64,000 bases of DNA from Exiguobacterium acetylicum (GTDB lineage Bacteria; Bacillota; Bacilli; Exiguobacteriales; Exiguobacteriaceae), in NCBI RefSeq assembly GCF_019890935.1, contig NZ_CP082333.1, positions 1,576,001 to 1,640,000 of the forward strand, in the 5' to 3' direction. The notes under the pieces are model-generated. The model was not told where the DNA came from. It made no database searches and was given only the letters and a program-made list of their open reading frames with translations. Made by a program: the position numbers and the translations under genes. This document shows, piece by piece, positions 7,953 to 50,490 of this stretch; within the stretch, counting starts at the first letter, position 1, and each line of letters starts with the position of its first letter.

Positions 7953-8008
7953 GGTGTTCTTGGTCATGGATAAGCTGCCGCCTGGTCGTCTAAAAGGGAG
8001 GAAACCGC

Positions 8009-9178
8009 ATGCAACCCATCATCGCCTTTACGATCATCATGCTCATCTGGACTGTCAGCGATTATGTTTCGAAAAAAACGAAGGCCTTATTATCTTCCTT
8101 ATTCGTTGCCTCCATTATTTTCTTAATTGGATTCAAGACGAATCTTTTTCCAGAAGATTTGTTACCGACGTCCTCATTACTGCCACTTGGTCAAACGGTC
8201 GTCGGTATGATCATCGTCCACCTCGGAACTTTGATCAGTCTTGATGAATTCAAGCGACAGTGGAAAACGTTCTTGATCGGGGTATCAGCAGTGTTAGGCA
8301 TTAGTGTCCTATTGTTTACGATCGGACGATTACTGCTTGATACCAATTACGTCTTAAGTGCGATTGCTGCCATCAGTGGTGGAACGATTTCCGTCATCAT
8401 CGTGCAGGAGGAAGCATTAAATGCTGGACTAATCTCTGTCGCTGTTTTTCCAGTCTTGATTGCAGCCTTACAAGGATTGATCGGTTTTCCGCTGACATCG
8501 ATCATTCTTCGGAAAGAAGCGCTCCGGATTCGGGACGGTGTTCGGGATGGTAGTATTACGAAACGTACGGAGCTTAATCCAGAACAAACCACTGAAAAGC
8601 AAACGATTCTTCCGGAACCGTTTCAAACGACGGCAGGTACATTGTTCGTCGTCGGAGTCGTCGTAATCATCTCGACGTTTCTCAGCGGTTTGACGAATGG
8701 CTGGCTCAATACGTTCGTCATTGCCTTGTTGCTCGGTATCGCCTTACGGGCAACTGGCGTCCTAAAACCAAACGTCTTGAACGGAATCGATGCCTATGGT
8801 CTGATGATGCTGGCGATTTTATTAATCATCTTTGGACCGCTTGCGACGACTTCATTTGCGGACCTCGTCGAACTACTCGTACCACTCTTGATTGCCTTTT
8901 CTCTTGGTGTACTAGGTATCGTATTGTTCGCGATGCTTGCCGGGAAACTGCTCGGATATTCCTATTCGATGGCGATCGCGATTGGTTTGACGTCCTTATA
9001 TGGCTTTCCAGGTACATTGATTCTCAGTCAAGAAGCTGCTAAAAATATCGGGGAGACGGAAGATGAGGTCCAAATCATTGAAAACGAAATTTTACCGAAG
9101 ATGGTCGTCGCCGGTTTTTCGACGGTGACGATTACATCCGTCTTCATCACCGGTATTTTAGCGTCGTTCATCTATTGA
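8009..9178 (+). CDS. Putative secondary transporter, 10-12 TM segments
   Basis: A 389-residue polytopic membrane protein that I cannot place in a named family with certainty. Its two halves look like a degenerate internal repeat: SAIAAISGGTISVIIVQEEA in the first and MAIAIGLTSLYGFPGTLI (then LSQEA) in the second. That pattern of two Gly-rich broken helices is typical of elevator-type or GltS/CPA-like transporters. A charged cytoplasmic loop (residues ~170-205) separates the halves. It starts 56 bp after the peptidase behind GGGAGGAAAC, suggesting it moves an amino acid or peptide linked to that enzyme. Function inferred only. Confidence 0.6.
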   Translation: MQPIIAFTIIMLIWTVSDYVSKKTKALLSSLFVASIIFLIGFKTNLFPEDLLPTSSLLPLGQTVVGMIIVHLGTLISLDEFKRQWKTFLIGVSAVLGISVLLFTIGRLLLDTNYVLSAIAAISGGTISVIIVQEEALNAGLISVAVFPVLIAALQGLIGFPLTSIILRKEALRIRDGVRDGSITKRTELNPEQTTEKQTILPEPFQTTAGTLFVVGVVVIISTFLSGLTNGWLNTFVIALLLGIALRATGVLKPNVLNGIDAYGLMMLAILLIIFGPLATTSFADLVELLVPLLIAFSLGVLGIVLFAMLAGKLLGYSYSMAIAIGLTSLYGFPGTLILSQEAAKNIGETEDEVQIIENEILPKMVVAGFSTVTITSVFITGILASFIY

Positions 9179-43084: not shown

Positions 43085-43507
43085 TTATTCTGCGTCAGTC
43101 GTACGTGTATAGACGTCGACTTGGATGTTTCCAGCAGTTGCACGCGAGTAAGGGCAGACCGTATGCGCGACTTTCGCGAGTTCAGCTGCCGCTTCTTCCG
43201 AGATTCCGCGGACGAGAACATCGAGTTCGACAGAAAGCATGAATCCGTCAGCTGCTTCGTTTAATGTCACGTGTGCTGTGACTTCACTGCCATCATGTTT
43301 GATGCCTTGTTTACGTGCGACCATGTTTAAAGCAGAGTCGAAGCAAGCAGAATATCCTGCAGCAAAGAGTTGTTCTGGGTTCGTTGCTTGTTTTTTCGAT
43401 CCTGGTACCGGCATTGCGAGAGCGACGTCAAGGATTCCGTCCTCCGATACGACGCGTCCGTCGCGACCTCCGACAGCTGTTGCAGATGATGTGAACATTG
43501 GTTTCAT
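43085..43507 (-). CDS. ohr: Organic hydroperoxide resistance protein
   Basis: A 140-residue OsmC/Ohr peroxidase. The two catalytic cysteines lie in GYSACFDSALN and AHTVCPYSRATAGN. Family opening FTSSATAVGGRDGRV and the LFAAGYSACF block are present. It reduces fatty acid and other organic hydroperoxides in the cytoplasm, usually with lipoyl-dependent reductants. Divergent from ohrR, with the OhrR operator between them. RBS AAGGGAG. Confidence 0.95.
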   Translation of the reverse strand: MKPMFTSSATAVGGRDGRVVSEDGILDVALAMPVPGSKKQATNPEQLFAAGYSACFDSALNMVARKQGIKHDGSEVTAHVTLNEAADGFMLSVELDVLVRGISEEAAAELAKVAHTVCPYSRATAGNIQVDVYTRTTDAE

Positions 43508-43548
43508 GTGTGTAACTCCCTTTCGTTGTTAGATTCAAATAAGTAGCT

Positions 43549-43569
43549 TACAATTAGATTGTATACAAT
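43549..43569. promoter_or_regulatory. OhrR operator between ohr and ohrR
   Basis: TACAATTAGATTGTA (43549-43563) overlaps the perfect dyad ATTGTATACAAT (43558-43569), closely matching the known OhrR box pattern TACAATT-n-AATTGTA of Bacillus subtilis. Confidence 0.8.
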
Positions 43570-43616
43570 TTAAATCGAAATGCAACTCGTTTGCTCACGA
43601 TAGGAGGAATTTTTTT

Positions 43617-44048
43617 ATGAACCCATTAGCCTTAGATGAACAACTCTGTTTTCCGTTTTATGCGATATCGCGTGAGATCACGCGTCGTTATCGTCCGTTA
43701 CTTGAACCACTTGGTCTGACGTATCCGCAATATCTCGTCATGCTCGTCGTCTGGGAAGAGGAGGGACAATCGCTGAAAGCCATCGGTGAACGGCTCCATC
43801 TTGATTCGGGAACGTTGACGCCGTTACTGAAGAAACTCGAAGCAGCAGATCTGTTGCGACGCGTCCGTAAGCCGGAAGACGAACGGCACATTCAGATCTT
43901 TTTGACGGATGCCGGTCGTGCGTTACGGAAACAAGCAGAGACCGTTCCGCTTGATCTCGTCCGGACACTCGACGTCGACGAAGAAGACTTACGCGTCGTT
44001 AAAGCGGCACTGAATCGTCTCGTCATGAAAATGAGCGACCCGGATTAA
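43617..44048 (+). CDS. ohrR: MarR-family peroxide sensor OhrR
   Basis: 143 residues. The single sensing cysteine is in the classical N-terminal place (LDEQLCFPFYAISREI), and no second Cys follows, so it belongs to the one-Cys OhrR type that reacts with bacillithiol-like thiols. The winged helix is IGERLHLDSGTLTPLLKKLE with RKPEDERHIQIFLTDAG. It represses the divergent ohr and itself until oxidised by organic peroxide. RBS AGGAGG. Confidence 0.94.
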   Translation: MNPLALDEQLCFPFYAISREITRRYRPLLEPLGLTYPQYLVMLVVWEEEGQSLKAIGERLHLDSGTLTPLLKKLEAADLLRRVRKPEDERHIQIFLTDAGRALRKQAETVPLDLVRTLDVDEEDLRVVKAALNRLVMKMSDPD

Positions 44049-44065: not shown

Positions 44066-44521
44066 TTATTTACGGCGGAAACCTTCTTCTTCAAGATAGT
44101 TCGCTGCTTCCTTATACGAGTTGAATGCACCGTCTAAAAGGTCACCAGCATAGACGAGCCACGTGTCGATGTCTTCATTGAGCAACGTCAATTCAAACTG
44201 ATTATCGTTGACCCATGTTTCTTCGAGTGTTTCGACCGATTGGACCGTCGAGAGTGCTTTGATTGCATCTTCTAATAAGAGAATTAAAGCAGGCTCTGAG
44301 AATTCACGGATGTTGACGAATCCTTTTTCGTCCGTTTCATAACCTGGTAGACCAGCGGCATAGACGAAGCCGTTTCCGTTCGGATGCAAATGATAGACGA
44401 GATTCTTCTTCTCATACTGACTGTCCGGGAATTGGAAATTGACGCGCTTTAGCGAGACATCTTTGCGGACGAGCTGTGGGAAAGTCTCGATAATTCGTAG
44501 TTTTTCTTCAAAAGTTAACAT
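44066..44521 (-). CDS. Unknown protein
   Basis: 151 residues, soluble, no family recognised. It begins MLTFEEKLRIIETFPQLVRK and ends with a helical segment AFNSYKEAANYLEEEGFRRK; the middle is beta-rich (KNLVYHLHPNGNGFVYAAGL). Single gene with good RBS AAGGAGG and its own terminator shared with ohrR. Confidence 0.55.
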   Translation of the reverse strand: MLTFEEKLRIIETFPQLVRKDVSLKRVNFQFPDSQYEKKNLVYHLHPNGNGFVYAAGLPGYETDEKGFVNIREFSEPALILLLEDAIKALSTVQSVETLEETWVNDNQFELTLLNEDIDTWLVYAGDLLDGAFNSYKEAANYLEEEGFRRK

Positions 44522-44646
44522 GGTTCCTCCTTGGTGTTACAGTTCTTCACTTCTATATATGCGATGAAATCAAACAAAATGTCAACCGCTGTCTGAAACC
44601 AAGCGACGTTTTTAACCGTAAATGGAAACGAAAGGAAGTGTTTTTG

Positions 44647-45138
44647 ATGTCTACTGTACAATGGCATACATTGCCTGAACGATCGATTCGAGCAGAACGG
44701 CTCGGATTGTTGCCGTTACACGGCTTGATCGCCGTCATTTTAATCGGAACGACAATCACCCAAGTCATGTGGCTCGACCTGACACCCTGGTGGATGGGTA
44801 TCGTCGGTCTGCTTTGGCTGATCTATTTCATTCCCCGTATCGTCTACATACCCGTTCTTCGCTTGAAGTATATGCGTTATCGCATTGATGAGGAATTTCT
44901 CGTCGTCCGCAACGGGATCTTTTTCCGCCGCGAAGTCACCGTGCCGCTCGTCAAGGTGCAATTGATCGATAGCCAAACGGGACCGATCCTGCGTCGCTAT
45001 GATTTGATCACACTGGATATTCGAACGGCATCCGGCTTCGTCACGTTGTCACGACTCGATCGTGCGCAAGGAGACGCGCTACGCACACAAGTCGAACGCT
45101 TCGCGAAACTCGAGGAGCGGGAGGAGGAATCGTTATGA
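44647..45138 (+). CDS. YdbS-like membrane PH-domain protein
   Basis: 163 residues. Two TM segments (HGLIAVILIGTTITQVMWL; GIVGLLWLIYFIPRIVYIPV) lead into one bacterial PH-like domain (RYRIDEEFLVVRNGIFFRRE then VPLVKVQLIDSQTGPILRR). It is the partner of the YdbT-like protein, whose start overlaps its stop (ATGA). Homologous pairs in Bacillus raise tolerance to peptide antibiotics; mechanism unknown. RBS AAAGGAAG lies before ATG 44647. Confidence 0.85.
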   Translation: MSTVQWHTLPERSIRAERLGLLPLHGLIAVILIGTTITQVMWLDLTPWWMGIVGLLWLIYFIPRIVYIPVLRLKYMRYRIDEEFLVVRNGIFFRREVTVPLVKVQLIDSQTGPILRRYDLITLDIRTASGFVTLSRLDRAQGDALRTQVERFAKLEEREEESL

Positions 45139-46583
45139 CCCGGCGTGTTCACCCGCTGTTCATCGTGATGTCGAGTATCTCGATCATCCGCTCGCTCCTG
45201 ATTCCATTCGCCGCCTTGATTTTTAATGCAATCCGCAAAGGCGAGATCAACACCTATACGTGGATCGGGATCAGTGTCGGGATTGTGTTCGTTCTCTTAT
45301 ACGGGATCGCCTCCTGGTATTTCTATACGTTCACGATTGATGCCGAGACGATCCGGGTCCGCAAAGGGATTTTCCAAAAAAGTGAACGGACGACGCAACG
45401 TAAACGGATCGAGTCGATCGGCATCCAGCAAAACGTCATCGAACGACTGTTGCGTCTTGCGACGTTGACCGTTGAGACGTCGTCCGAGAGCGGAACACCG
45501 GAAGTCGAACTGAAGGGGATCCGTCTTGATTTTGCGAAAGAACTGAAGTCGTCGATCAAAAACGAAGGACAGCCCGTCGTCGAAGAACAACAGGCGGAAG
45601 TCGCCTATACGATCCCGGTCCGCGATTTAGCATTAGCCGGTGCCTTGTCAGGACGCGTCGGACTAGCGCTCGTCGGGATCGGGACCGCCTATCAATTCAT
45701 CGATCAGTTCATTGAACGTTATGTCGACCGTCTGTTCTCGGAGCTCGCGCATTTATCGTTATTCGTCTTGACGGGGCTTGGCGTAATCGTCTTACTCGTC
45801 ATCTATATCGGCTCGATCATCGTCTATATCTTGAAATACGGTTCCTACCGTGCTGTCTTGCAACACAACCGATTATTGATCGGGTACGGAATGTTGAACC
45901 GGACCGAGGTCGCGTTTCATGCCGATAAGATTCAAGCCCTCGTCATTCAGGAAAGCTGGATTCAGCGGTTGATTGGACGAGCGAGCCTGTCTCTGCACAT
46001 CATCTCGGCGACTGGAGAAAAGGAGCGACTGTTGCTCCATCCGTTCATCCGGACGAACGAGATTGATCCGTTCCTAGCGACATATCTGCCGCGCTTTCGT
46101 CAGTTCCATCCGCAGCACGAAGTCGCACCGATCGGCTTTCGCTACCGGGTTCGTTGGCCGTTACTCGGTTATGCGCTGTTGTTTACGGCACTAAGCAGTG
46201 TCGTCATCATCGTCCTTGATTCTTCCTGGCGCTTCTTGATCTTACTTCTGTTCATTTGGTTACCGTTCTATTATCTCGCTGTGCGCAGCGGATACCGAAA
46301 GACCCGTTTCGGCACCGGCCACGATCTCTTGATGTTACGCAAACAATGGGTTCAAAAAGAGACCGTCTATACGCCGCGACTGAAAATTGAGGAATTGACC
46401 TGGTCCGTCTCCCGCTGGCTCGAAGCAAAGGAGATTGCCCGGATTGAGATTCAACTGCGGGGCAATACTGCCTTTAACGCACTCTATTTTGAACGAACGG
46501 ATATCGATACCTTACAGCGCTGGTATAAACAATCGTTCCTTTCGACCCCGTTAGCAGGGGAAGTGAAAACCGACGACGAATAA
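45135..46583 (+). CDS. YdbT-like membrane protein with three PH-like domains
   Basis: 482 residues. TM pairs alternate with bacterial PH-like domains: DAETIRVRKGIFQKSERTTQ with KRIESIGIQQNVIERLLR; LIGYGMLNRTEVAFHADKIQ with ALVIQESWIQRLIGRASLS; and RKTRFGTGHDLLMLRKQWVQ with KEIARIEIQLRGN. The repeated 'hydrophobic-K-x-Q-x-hydrophobic' pattern is diagnostic of the family. Forms an operon with YdbS-like, a diverged alpha/beta hydrolase and a PP2C. Confidence 0.85.
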   Translation: MTRRVHPLFIVMSSISIIRSLLIPFAALIFNAIRKGEINTYTWIGISVGIVFVLLYGIASWYFYTFTIDAETIRVRKGIFQKSERTTQRKRIESIGIQQNVIERLLRLATLTVETSSESGTPEVELKGIRLDFAKELKSSIKNEGQPVVEEQQAEVAYTIPVRDLALAGALSGRVGLALVGIGTAYQFIDQFIERYVDRLFSELAHLSLFVLTGLGVIVLLVIYIGSIIVYILKYGSYRAVLQHNRLLIGYGMLNRTEVAFHADKIQALVIQESWIQRLIGRASLSLHIISATGEKERLLLHPFIRTNEIDPFLATYLPRFRQFHPQHEVAPIGFRYRVRWPLLGYALLFTALSSVVIIVLDSSWRFLILLLFIWLPFYYLAVRSGYRKTRFGTGHDLLMLRKQWVQKETVYTPRLKIEELTWSVSRWLEAKEIARIEIQLRGNTAFNALYFERTDIDTLQRWYKQSFLSTPLAGEVKTDDE

Positions 46584-46617
46584 GGAAAGACTCACTGTCG
46601 GAAAGGAAGCGAAGCAC

Positions 46618-47538
46618 ATGCGCAAATGGGGAATCGGCATCGTGTTGCTCGTCACGTGTCTGCTATTGTTCATCGTCTATGATGGATACCGGATGCAAGA
46701 AACATTGATCGGTCAGTCGGACGCTTCTCCGATTCTGAAGACGACAAGAACGGACGGACAGGTGACGAACGACGAGACATGGTTTAAACAAACGAGCGAG
46801 ACGCAGCAATGGTCGAAGGACGGGATCGTCCGCTTCGGGCGTTATCTACCGGTTGACGGTAGTAAACAAACAGTCCTCCTCGTCCCGGATGAGATGATGT
46901 TTTCACAGACCGGTGTTTATGCGCTTGCCCGCTATTACCATGAGGCTGATTTCAATGTCTTACTCATCGAACGGCGTGGGCAGGATCGAAGCGGTGGCGT
47001 CCGAAACTACGGTTGGCTCGATCGACTGGATGTCTTGGAATGGACGAAACGCCTGCTTGCTGAAAACGGAGACGATATACGGATCGTCTATCACGGACTT
47101 GGTGTCGGCGCAGCGACCGTCTTACTTGCTTCTGGCGAGACCGTACCAACCCAAGTCCGGGCGATCGTCGCTGAAGGAGCTTACGCCCGACTCGACGACT
47201 GGTTCAGTCTACTCGCGGACGAACAGATCCGTTACCCGGCACTGCCGTCTCTGACGGTCGCGAGCATGTGGAACAAGGGCGAGCAAGATTTCTTTTATGG
47301 CGACGTCTCGGTGACCCGTCAAGCAACGAAGAGTCGGGTTCCGACGATGTTCATTCACGGAATGAAGGACGAACTCGTCCCAATCCGGATGATGTATGAA
47401 CTGTATCAAGCAAAAACGGGATTAAAACAATTGTATCCGGTTCGTGATGCCGTTCATGACGAGACGTATACGATGGACCCGGATAACTACGAAAAACGAT
47501 TACGCTTATTCTTGCAACCGTACTTGCGGGAGATGTAA
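46618..47538 (+). CDS. Membrane-anchored alpha/beta-hydrolase fold protein lacking the Ser nucleophile
   Basis: 306 residues. An N-terminal signal anchor (IGIVLLVTCLLLFIVYDGY) precedes an alpha/beta hydrolase domain like Bacillus YqkD. At the nucleophile elbow, where G-x-S-x-G is expected, the sequence is YHGLGVGAATVLLASG, with Gly in place of Ser. The acid (FIHGMKDELVP) and His (RDAVHDETY) positions remain. It is therefore probably not a normal esterase; it may bind a ligand or partner. It lies 34 bp after the YdbT-like gene and 18 bp before the PP2C gene, so all four are likely co-transcribed. Confidence 0.8.
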   Translation: MRKWGIGIVLLVTCLLLFIVYDGYRMQETLIGQSDASPILKTTRTDGQVTNDETWFKQTSETQQWSKDGIVRFGRYLPVDGSKQTVLLVPDEMMFSQTGVYALARYYHEADFNVLLIERRGQDRSGGVRNYGWLDRLDVLEWTKRLLAENGDDIRIVYHGLGVGAATVLLASGETVPTQVRAIVAEGAYARLDDWFSLLADEQIRYPALPSLTVASMWNKGEQDFFYGDVSVTRQATKSRVPTMFIHGMKDELVPIRMMYELYQAKTGLKQLYPVRDAVHDETYTMDPDNYEKRLRLFLQPYLREM

Positions 47539-47556
47539 AGAAGGGAAGACTGATGC

Positions 47557-48348
47557 ATGCAGACGACACATCCATCCTACTTCTGGGTCGGATCCGACGA
47601 ATCATTCGTCGACACGAAGCAGATTGACCAGATTGGTCGGATAACGCTCGGGCGATTCGGAGGCTGCTCAAGAAGCGGTCAATATAAAAACGAAGACGGG
47701 GCTGCCATCTTGATCGGCGACGATTGGGAGATGATCGTCGTCTTAGACGCTCATAAGACAGCGGATAGTGCGGCACTTGTCTTACAGCAGTTGGCACAAC
47801 ACGAGTCGCGCATTCGGACTGATCTTGATGCCCCACTTACGGACGCATTCCGACGGATCGAGACGACCGTGCTGGATCTATTTCAAGATCCGGACTTTTT
47901 AGCGGCGTGTGCGACGTTGCAAGGGGAGACGGCGTGTCTGATTGCGGTCCGCAAAGGACGGTTCATCTGGTGGTTCTCGGTCGGTGACGTCGTCTTGTAT
48001 CTGTTTCACCCAGATTTGATGAAGATGGGACAAGCCGCTTTGAACCAGCGGCAGTTTTATGAATGGATTGGACGCGCGAACACCTTTGCGTTACCGGTCC
48101 CGAGTTATACGCGTGGCGTCCGCGAGTTGCGACAAGGCGAGAATCAGTTGTTCGTGACGACGGATGGTTTGCTTGAGTGCCCGGGAACCCCATATGCTGA
48201 CGCGAGACAGTTGGAGGAATCTTTACGATCAGGTGGTGTCAAAGAACTTCTCTCGACAATCGAGGCACAGGGTGTTCGTGACAGCACGACGGTCGTTACA
48301 TGGACCGTCACGATTGACGAACGCGTCACCCAACCTAGTGATACATGA
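47557..48348 (+). CDS. PP2C-family protein phosphatase-like protein
   Basis: A 263-residue PP2C fold. Recognisable motifs are QYKNEDGAAIL, MIVVLDAHKTADSA (where DGHGG is usual), WWFSVGDVVLYLFHPD, LFVTTDGLLECPG and a C-terminal RDSTTVVTWTV (where DN is usual). The metal-site Asp residues of motifs I, II and VIII-like positions are kept, but DGH reads DAH and DN reads DS. It may be a phosphatase with unusual metal binding or a regulatory relative. Last gene of the YdbS-YdbT operon, followed by a terminator. Confidence 0.75.
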   Translation: MQTTHPSYFWVGSDESFVDTKQIDQIGRITLGRFGGCSRSGQYKNEDGAAILIGDDWEMIVVLDAHKTADSAALVLQQLAQHESRIRTDLDAPLTDAFRRIETTVLDLFQDPDFLAACATLQGETACLIAVRKGRFIWWFSVGDVVLYLFHPDLMKMGQAALNQRQFYEWIGRANTFALPVPSYTRGVRELRQGENQLFVTTDGLLECPGTPYADARQLEESLRSGGVKELLSTIEAQGVRDSTTVVTWTVTIDERVTQPSDT

Positions 48349-48352
48349 AATA

Positions 48353-48382
48353 ACCCGCGCTCAAGCATGAGCGCGGGTTATT
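48353..48382. terminator. Bidirectional terminator after the PP2C gene
   Basis: AACCCGCGCTC, 6-base loop, GAGCGCGGGTT: a perfect 11-bp GC-rich stem, followed by the TTA repeat. Confidence 0.8.
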
Positions 48383-49305: not shown

Positions 49306-50490
49306 GTGGAGTTTACACATTGGAAACGACGGCTGCAAGATCATTTCGAACGAATGGGCTTTTCTCTACTGACGGAACGATTAGCATCGCAGGACATGGT
49401 CAAGCTCGAAGCGACACATGGTGCCTTCTTGTTCTTTCCGGTGACGATCCATCTGTATGAGCGGTCCGGCTGGAAGATGATCGCCTTCGAGGCAAAGACG
49501 GAGGAGGAGCCGCAACTCGTCGAGCAGCAGATTGCCTCGTTATTCCAACTCTTAATGGTGACGTTTCAAGAAGAAGAGCGCGAGTTCCTGCTCGGATTTC
49601 ACGCGAATACCGGTCGTTACCTGACGGACCGTAATGCACCCGTTGGCCGGCTCGTCCGTCTGATCGAAGAGTGCTGGTATGACGGTGACGTCCTGCGAGT
49701 CGACACATTCGATCCGTTTCCGGGACTGTTCGTCGCGCCACCTTTCGCCCATCAAAGTTATGCCTTCATGCCGGAAGAACGGACGTGGCGCTTATCTGTT
49801 GGGCGTACTGGACGTCCGGCGAACGATTATCGATTTGACGGAACGATTTTATCGCCACACCGCTTACCGGAATCGGAATTATTCACCGTGACACCAAAGA
49901 CGGTCCCGTTAGAGGATGAAGAAACGATCCGAACCTTACTGGAAACGGAACGACGGACGATCACTAAATTCCATGATCGCGCCATGGCGACGATTCGGGC
50001 GTACGACCCATCATTTGGTTTTGCTTGGCGCGGTACACAGACGTTTTTCCACGGTGTTCCGGTCAACCCATTCGCACAGCGCCTGTGGCTCGAGAACGGT
50101 GTGACGCGATACCGGATTCTACAACAAGGATCGACGAGATTGCTTGCCTCAGGTGAGACTTGTGACGCTGTCATCGAGATGCTCGACGATGCCGTCAGCA
50201 GTGAAGAACCGGATGGTCAATCGGTCAGTCCGATTGGTCAACTGATCCTCGGGATTTGGCAACAGATCGAGTCGGACGAAGCGACGTATATCACGAACGT
50301 CGATTGCCGCGGCATCTCGCGCACACAAGCCGATAATCGGATTCGTCACGCGCTAGCACGACAAGAGACGATTGAGTGGGTACACCGGGCACCGAACGAA
50401 GATGATAGTTGTCGCTTTGCCGGTCTGACGTTGACCTTCCCGCATCGTCCGCCGGGTGTCGTCACGATTGAACGAACGGAAGCAGAATAA
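49306..50490 (+). CDS. Unknown 394-residue protein
   Basis: Soluble, no signal peptide, no family recognised. It begins MEFTHWKRRLQDHFERMGFS, has aromatic-rich central strands (WRLSVGRTGRPANDYRFDGT; FGFAWRGTQTFFHGVPVNPF) and a short C-terminal helical part (GISRTQADNRIRHALARQET) that could be a small DNA- or protein-binding unit. GTG start 49306 behind GAGAGGAGAGG. It lies 21 bp after the DUF1129-like gene, so probably co-transcribed. Confidence 0.5.
   Translation: MEFTHWKRRLQDHFERMGFSLLTERLASQDMVKLEATHGAFLFFPVTIHLYERSGWKMIAFEAKTEEEPQLVEQQIASLFQLLMVTFQEEEREFLLGFHANTGRYLTDRNAPVGRLVRLIEECWYDGDVLRVDTFDPFPGLFVAPPFAHQSYAFMPEERTWRLSVGRTGRPANDYRFDGTILSPHRLPESELFTVTPKTVPLEDEETIRTLLETERRTITKFHDRAMATIRAYDPSFGFAWRGTQTFFHGVPVNPFAQRLWLENGVTRYRILQQGSTRLLASGETCDAVIEMLDDAVSSEEPDGQSVSPIGQLILGIWQQIESDEATYITNVDCRGISRTQADNRIRHALARQETIEWVHRAPNEDDSCRFAGLTLTFPHRPPGVVTIERTEAE

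Follow-up and report, generated by a model that had tools for sequence, protein, structure and literature searches.

Pairs of membrane proteins with bacterial PH domains of the YdbS-YdbT type are met repeatedly, both among sigma-W-controlled genes and within bacteriocin clusters, and their mode of action is unsettled. In the accessible parts of the literature, ydbS-ydbT-acpS of Bacillus subtilis is given among the sigma-W units (PMC3498285), YdbST appears in a review table as protective against amylocyclicin (PMC8144471), and the YdbS/YdbT-like proteins DdE and DdF are described as involved in the export of one leaderless bacteriocin (PMC8657885). The locus considered here is a ydbST operon of Exiguobacterium acetylicum, found in a 64,000-nt stretch of NZ_CP082333.1 (the window; positions use window numbering unless C1: is given), in which the pair is followed by genes for a membrane-anchored hydrolase-like protein and a divergent PP2C phosphatase. 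In the literature searched on YdbS, YdbT and bPH terms, as far as its text was accessible, no description of such a set was found; the E. antarcticum genes Eab7_1498 and Eab7_1499, which probably correspond to the ydbST of this locus, are listed there just as 'Bacterial PH domain' (PMC6016940). We read the locus as a sigma-W-induced YdbST envelope-tolerance operon with a genus-specific, extracytoplasmic pseudo-hydrolase and a secondarily recruited PP2C, a reading to which we give a probability of about 0.5.

Gene layout and sigma-W-type promoter

The first two genes are adjacent and have the numbers of bPH_2 domains and of membrane segments (the latter predicted from hydropathy) of the reference YdbS/YdbT layout, taken from the accessible part of PMC8657885 (Table 1). 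They overlap by 4 bp, and the hydrolase and PP2C genes follow at 34 and 18 bp, an arrangement that had been proposed from the letters of the DNA alone (the sequence-only reading) and is confirmed by the open reading frames and their domain matches. At the window locus, no terminator was found in the ydbT-hydrolase gap or the hydrolase-PP2C gap, and the four genes are likely to form one operon in the window's own clade.

Promoters recognized by sigma-W have the consensus TGAAAC-N16/17-CGTA close to the first gene, and this pattern was used for the scan. A motif of the TGAAAC-N17-CGTA type lies 53–81 bp before ydbS in all 18 genus loci, and both of its boxes are constant across clades, with a spacer that varies. 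The motif also precedes ydbS at seven of eight loci of the sister genus and, beyond the order, at 21 of 52 (the 55 loci described below minus three with a differing layout), and the reversed control pattern gave 0 in each of the three sets. A SigW ortholog scoring above the curated cut-off is encoded at C1:153370-153906, with a motif just upstream of sigW itself (C1:153293-153318), so that the genome holds both the regulator and a matching promoter near the first gene of the operon. These findings point to SigW control of the ydbS operon. In E. antarcticum, sigW features in an expression study (PMC4247613, accessible part).

The 41 motif sites in the E. acetylicum genome outline a candidate Exiguobacterium sigma-W regulon. 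Ten other genes lying behind such motifs were scanned, and seven had a Pfam match (NfeD, Bax-inhibitor-like, ABC ATPase, DnaJ, DUF456, DUF1232 and DUF218).

Table 1. Features of the ydbST locus and its flanks in the window.
Feature	Position	Strand	Evidence and remarks
Sigma-W-type promoter, TGAAAC-N17-CGTA	44594-44620 (C1:1620594-1620620)	+	Motif scan
ydbS	44647-45138	+	bPH_2, E 6.8e-14; one bacterial PH domain; 2 membrane segments
ydbT	45135-46583	+	bPH_2, E 6.1e-28; three bPH_2 stretches; 6 membrane segments
Predicted hydrolase pseudoenzyme, alpha/beta fold, Gly in place of the elbow nucleophile Ser	46618-47538	+	Hydrolase_4; 1 membrane segment (N-terminal anchor)
Divergent PP2C phosphatase	47557-48348	+	PP2C_2, E 1.5e-15; 0 membrane segments
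Intrinsic terminator hairpin, directly 3' of the PP2C gene	48349-48382	+	Strong, T-rich tail
Divergent pair: Ohr peroxiredoxin, OhrR/MarR-type regulator	43085-44048		Adjoins the operon
150-aa protein	44066-44521	-	No Pfam or NCBIfam match
394-aa protein	49306-50490	+	No Pfam or NCBIfam match

The hydrolase-like protein

The third gene belongs to a hydrolase fold family by a narrow margin: Hydrolase_4 scores 27.8 bits (cut-off 27), and the matches to Abhydrolase_1 and Peptidase_S15 are also barely above their cut-offs. Its nucleophile elbow reads HG[LVI]G[VIT]G in all 19 genus orthologs, that is, HGxGxG and not HGxSxG, so the nucleophile serine of a GxSxG motif is replaced by glycine throughout. 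Four paralogs from the same genus, which are 31–37% identical and align over the full length of the hydrolase domain, retain the serine (HG[VI]SMG) as well as the oxyanion-strand HG; the window hydrolase has neither. When the solved esterase 5g59 is aligned, its GFSMG falls on GLGVG of the hydrolase. We assume for the elbow and the oxyanion HG the functional roles that such motifs are given in hydrolases. The values of dN/dS for this gene are low (0.06–0.22 in nine pairs) and near those of the other three genes (0.02–0.155), which indicates that the hydrolase is selected for. Judged by its sequence, then, the protein is a pseudoenzyme, catalytically dead and under purifying selection, and the inactive-looking hydrolase of the sequence-only reading emerges more firmly than it was first put.

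That the protein has kept enzymatic activity by way of an atypical active site is very improbable. The acid and base positions, D251 and H280, are indeed retained in the 10 aligned members, but the invariant elbow glycine, the replaced oxyanion HG and the alignment to 5g59 all speak against catalysis. The predicted structure of the hydrolase has a pLDDT of 52.6. Following the positive-inside rule, with MRKW standing before the single membrane segment, this segment would be a signal anchor and the hydrolase domain is probably outside the membrane.

Conservation and partners of the operon genes

The order of the four genes is kept in 18 of 19 Exiguobacterium species genomes, two of which carry breaks (G001 and G016), and the proteins are only about 50–60% identical between clades that keep it, which is more than chance would be expected to preserve. 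The junctions are unequally constant. The gap between ydbT and the hydrolase gene is 21–42 bp and lacks a strong hairpin at all 18 genus loci. That between the hydrolase and PP2C genes is 18 bp in the eight genomes of the window's own clade, 66–75 bp with no terminator in four others (G004, G008, G013 and G014), and 133–177 bp in a further five (G003, G007, G012, G015 and G018), where it holds a terminator-like hairpin (-20.5 to -31.2 kcal/mol) with a T-rich tail. A terminator thus splits the PP2C gene from the hydrolase gene in 5/17 genomes, G001 being left out of the count as it has an insertion at this junction; a search of the five terminator-bearing gaps for PP2C promoters gave weak hexamers only. 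From this pattern, the constant unit is ydbS-ydbT-hydrolase, and the PP2C gene is attached transcriptionally in part of the genus. Whether the four genes are transcribed together, which the sequence-only reading had made a touchstone, accordingly has a divided answer from the terminators: in the window's own clade the four probably make up a single operon, and in those five genomes the PP2C gene is set apart.

Outside the genus the arrangement dissolves. In the sister genus, bPH_2 matches occur in 18 of 19 genomes, but the eight ydbST loci that were read have other neighbours, with the hydrolase or PP2C gene beside ydbST in none of them, and hydrolase matches there are 24–30% identical. An ancient four-gene system was rejected on these eight loci together with the 55 discussed next, and conservation of all four genes beyond close relatives, which had been proposed as a check, was not borne out: at the loci read, the full set was seen in a single genus.

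Several observations weigh against the reading of a sigma-W-induced YdbST operon with its own pseudo-hydrolase. At 55 ydbST loci outside the order (from 51 genomes, picked by hand among the matches listed and hence a non-random sample), a profile match to the hydrolase or the PP2C within 8 kb was found at none. In the genome of E. flavidum (G005), bPH_2 gave no match; of the four genes, only that for the hydrolase is at the site, and the PP2C gene lies elsewhere, behind a HIT gene, so that in this species the hydrolase cannot depend on ydbST. The hydrolase of G016 is broken by a change of frame, and in G001 ydbT is broken, as is the gene for the 394-aa protein, each through sequencing error or real loss. 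Finally, the reversed promoter pattern occurs 15 times in the E. acetylicum genome, so that some of the 41 forward sites will be due to chance.

A tentative alternative, less probable than our preferred reading though to be taken seriously, is that ydbST is the working sigma-W unit and that the hydrolase and PP2C genes are unrelated to it, came to lie downstream in a common ancestor of most Exiguobacterium species, and are expressed by read-through. The restriction of the set to one genus, the E. flavidum hydrolase that does without ydbST, the terminators before PP2C and the frequent pairing of this PP2C family with a HIT gene elsewhere (below) all agree with it. For the hydrolase, such a history is hard to square with a short, terminator-free junction to ydbT that has persisted at 18/18 loci across clades of about 55% identity, a long time for a neutral arrangement. 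For the PP2C this counter-argument is weaker, and there the alternative may well hold.

The PP2C itself is modelled with confidence (pLDDT 93.7) and has the PP2C fold, superposing on 6ihl with Z 21.1 (208 residues, rmsd 2.6 Å) and on the Stp1 structure 5f1m with Z 20.3 (205 residues, 2.5 Å); a profile search against the sequences of solved structures gave 0 matches at 0.01. It falls far below the NCBIfam cut-off for Stp1 despite its PP2C_2 match. Four aspartates, D47, D64, D203 and D242, which we take to be the metal-binding positions, are invariant in 30 of 30 PP2C sequences and suggest a metal-competent and perhaps active enzyme. Gln42 occupies the position of an arginine that is presumably the canonical phosphate-binding residue, and the GDSR-like motif is altered when set against the canonical PP2C motifs. 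The description of an unusual PP2C in the sequence-only reading is borne out by the cut-off and by these motifs.

Members of the family were found in 43 of 398 genomes of the class (12 of 145 genera) and in 20 of the 38 genomes of the order. Its neighbours were surveyed in named genomes, for the best 80 of 266 confirmed stretches, and a gene was counted as the upstream partner if it lay directly upstream on the same strand at less than 150 bp. By this measure, the partner is a HIT-type gene at 48 of the 80 Bacillales loci and a pseudo-hydrolase gene at nine, all nine in Exiguobacterium. The HxHxHxx motif is present in 47 of the 48 HIT-type genes, and the four that were scanned match Pfam HIT. 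HIT-PP2C is thus a widespread Bacillales gene pair (loci L162-L233) in which the two genes mostly overlap by 8 or 14 bp; L189 is an example, with the PP2C gene at 7995-8810 and the HIT gene directly upstream. No description of the pair was found in literature searches.

E. flavidum and one genome of the sister genus (G034) carry HIT-PP2C. The HIT proteins of the other 18 Exiguobacterium genomes are only 27–33% identical and are encoded elsewhere; the best match in the window's own genome, 30% identical, lies at C1:739805, away from the PP2C gene. In a tree of 83 rows, from which L209, L227 and L231 were excluded, a single clade (support 100/97) unites the ten PP2Cs of the operon, and that of E. 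flavidum falls outside it. Together with the distribution of HIT genes, the tree indicates that the PP2C most likely switched genomic partner and was recruited secondarily beside the ydbST-hydrolase operon.

Some further features of these genomes concern the same genes or their surroundings. A second, very divergent bPH_2 pair is present elsewhere in three of the 19 genus genomes (L113, L114 and L115, in G001, G002 and G009), adjoining ORFs that by eye resemble ABC-transporter and MarR genes. Two near-identical 392-aa ORFs (L065:6710-7888 in G001; L114:5314-6492 in G002), which by eye look like a TnpB-type mobile element, are found at different sites: that of G001 lies on the opposite strand between the hydrolase and PP2C genes, that of G002 next to the second ydbS. 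Upstream of the operon site, the 150-aa protein is encoded in all 18 other genus genomes, E. flavidum included (79–100% identity), and the Ohr-OhrR pair is kept in 17 of them. The 394-aa protein is present in 38/38 genomes of the order, and its gene is the only one shared by six sister-genus stretches around it. An anti-phage defence role was rejected, as PADLOC gave 0 passing stretches and a Csn2 match at E 0.0096 is noise, and so was a phage origin, the single PHROG match being to YdbT, with none for the remaining three genes.

Proposed function and comparison with known systems

By analogy with the described relatives, envelope stress would lead SigW to transcribe ydbS-ydbT-hydrolase, and in this clade PP2C as well. 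YdbS and YdbT would form a membrane complex, its PH domains probably cytosolic, which from B. subtilis and enterococcal relatives may be expected to clear or export membrane-inserting antimicrobial peptides. The dead hydrolase would most likely be a binding or scaffold subunit of this Exiguobacterium module, perhaps binding a peptide or lipid, and the PP2C, which lacks membrane segments, may act independently. An operon with seven leaderless-bacteriocin peptides has been reported in E. indicum (PMC11580447, accessible part), and members of the genus may therefore be exposed to such peptides made by close relatives. In a bolder form, which we consider improbable and offer as speculation, the extracellular dead esterase fold would be the peptide or lipid receptor of YdbST within a sigma-W-induced bacteriocin-immunity complex, tuned from inside by the PP2C in some species.

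Of the four-part envelope signalling or peptide-tolerance system first suggested for this locus, the envelope theme survives, through the promoter at 18/18 loci, the SigW ortholog and the published YdbST data, as does the pseudo-hydrolase beside ydbST in 18/19 genomes; the fixed set of four does not. True signalling by all four, with YdbST and the pseudo-hydrolase sensing envelope damage and the PP2C dephosphorylating a cytosolic target or YdbT, is unlikely. Although it would suit the gene order within the genus, the 18-bp gap and common terminator of the window's own clade and the aspartates that suggest an active phosphatase, it has to contend with the terminators that part the PP2C gene from the rest, with a phosphatase and a hydrolase domain that are probably on opposite sides of the membrane, and with a PP2C family found mostly beside other partners.

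The preferred reading, a sigma-W-induced YdbST operon with its own pseudo-hydrolase, places a conserved pseudoenzyme and ydbST under one promoter throughout most of a genus, and this pairing provides a genetic handle on the question of an extracytoplasmic binding subunit; the locus is also a case of a PP2C with a changed genomic partner. With the HIT-PP2C and Stp1-type enzymes, the window PP2C shares the fold, but differs in the glutamine for arginine, the altered GDSR-like motif and the lack of a HIT partner. DdE/DdF-like pairs are likewise paired PH-domain membrane proteins, similar in size and topology to YdbS and YdbT of the window, but sit in bacteriocin clusters, whereas the window ydbST is chromosomal with a sigma-W-type promoter. 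The ydbS-ydbT pair of B. subtilis has the same 1 + 3 PH domains, 2 + 6 membrane segments, overlapping genes and sigma-W-type promoter; there the unit continues into acpS, whereas in Exiguobacterium it continues into the pseudo-hydrolase and PP2C genes.

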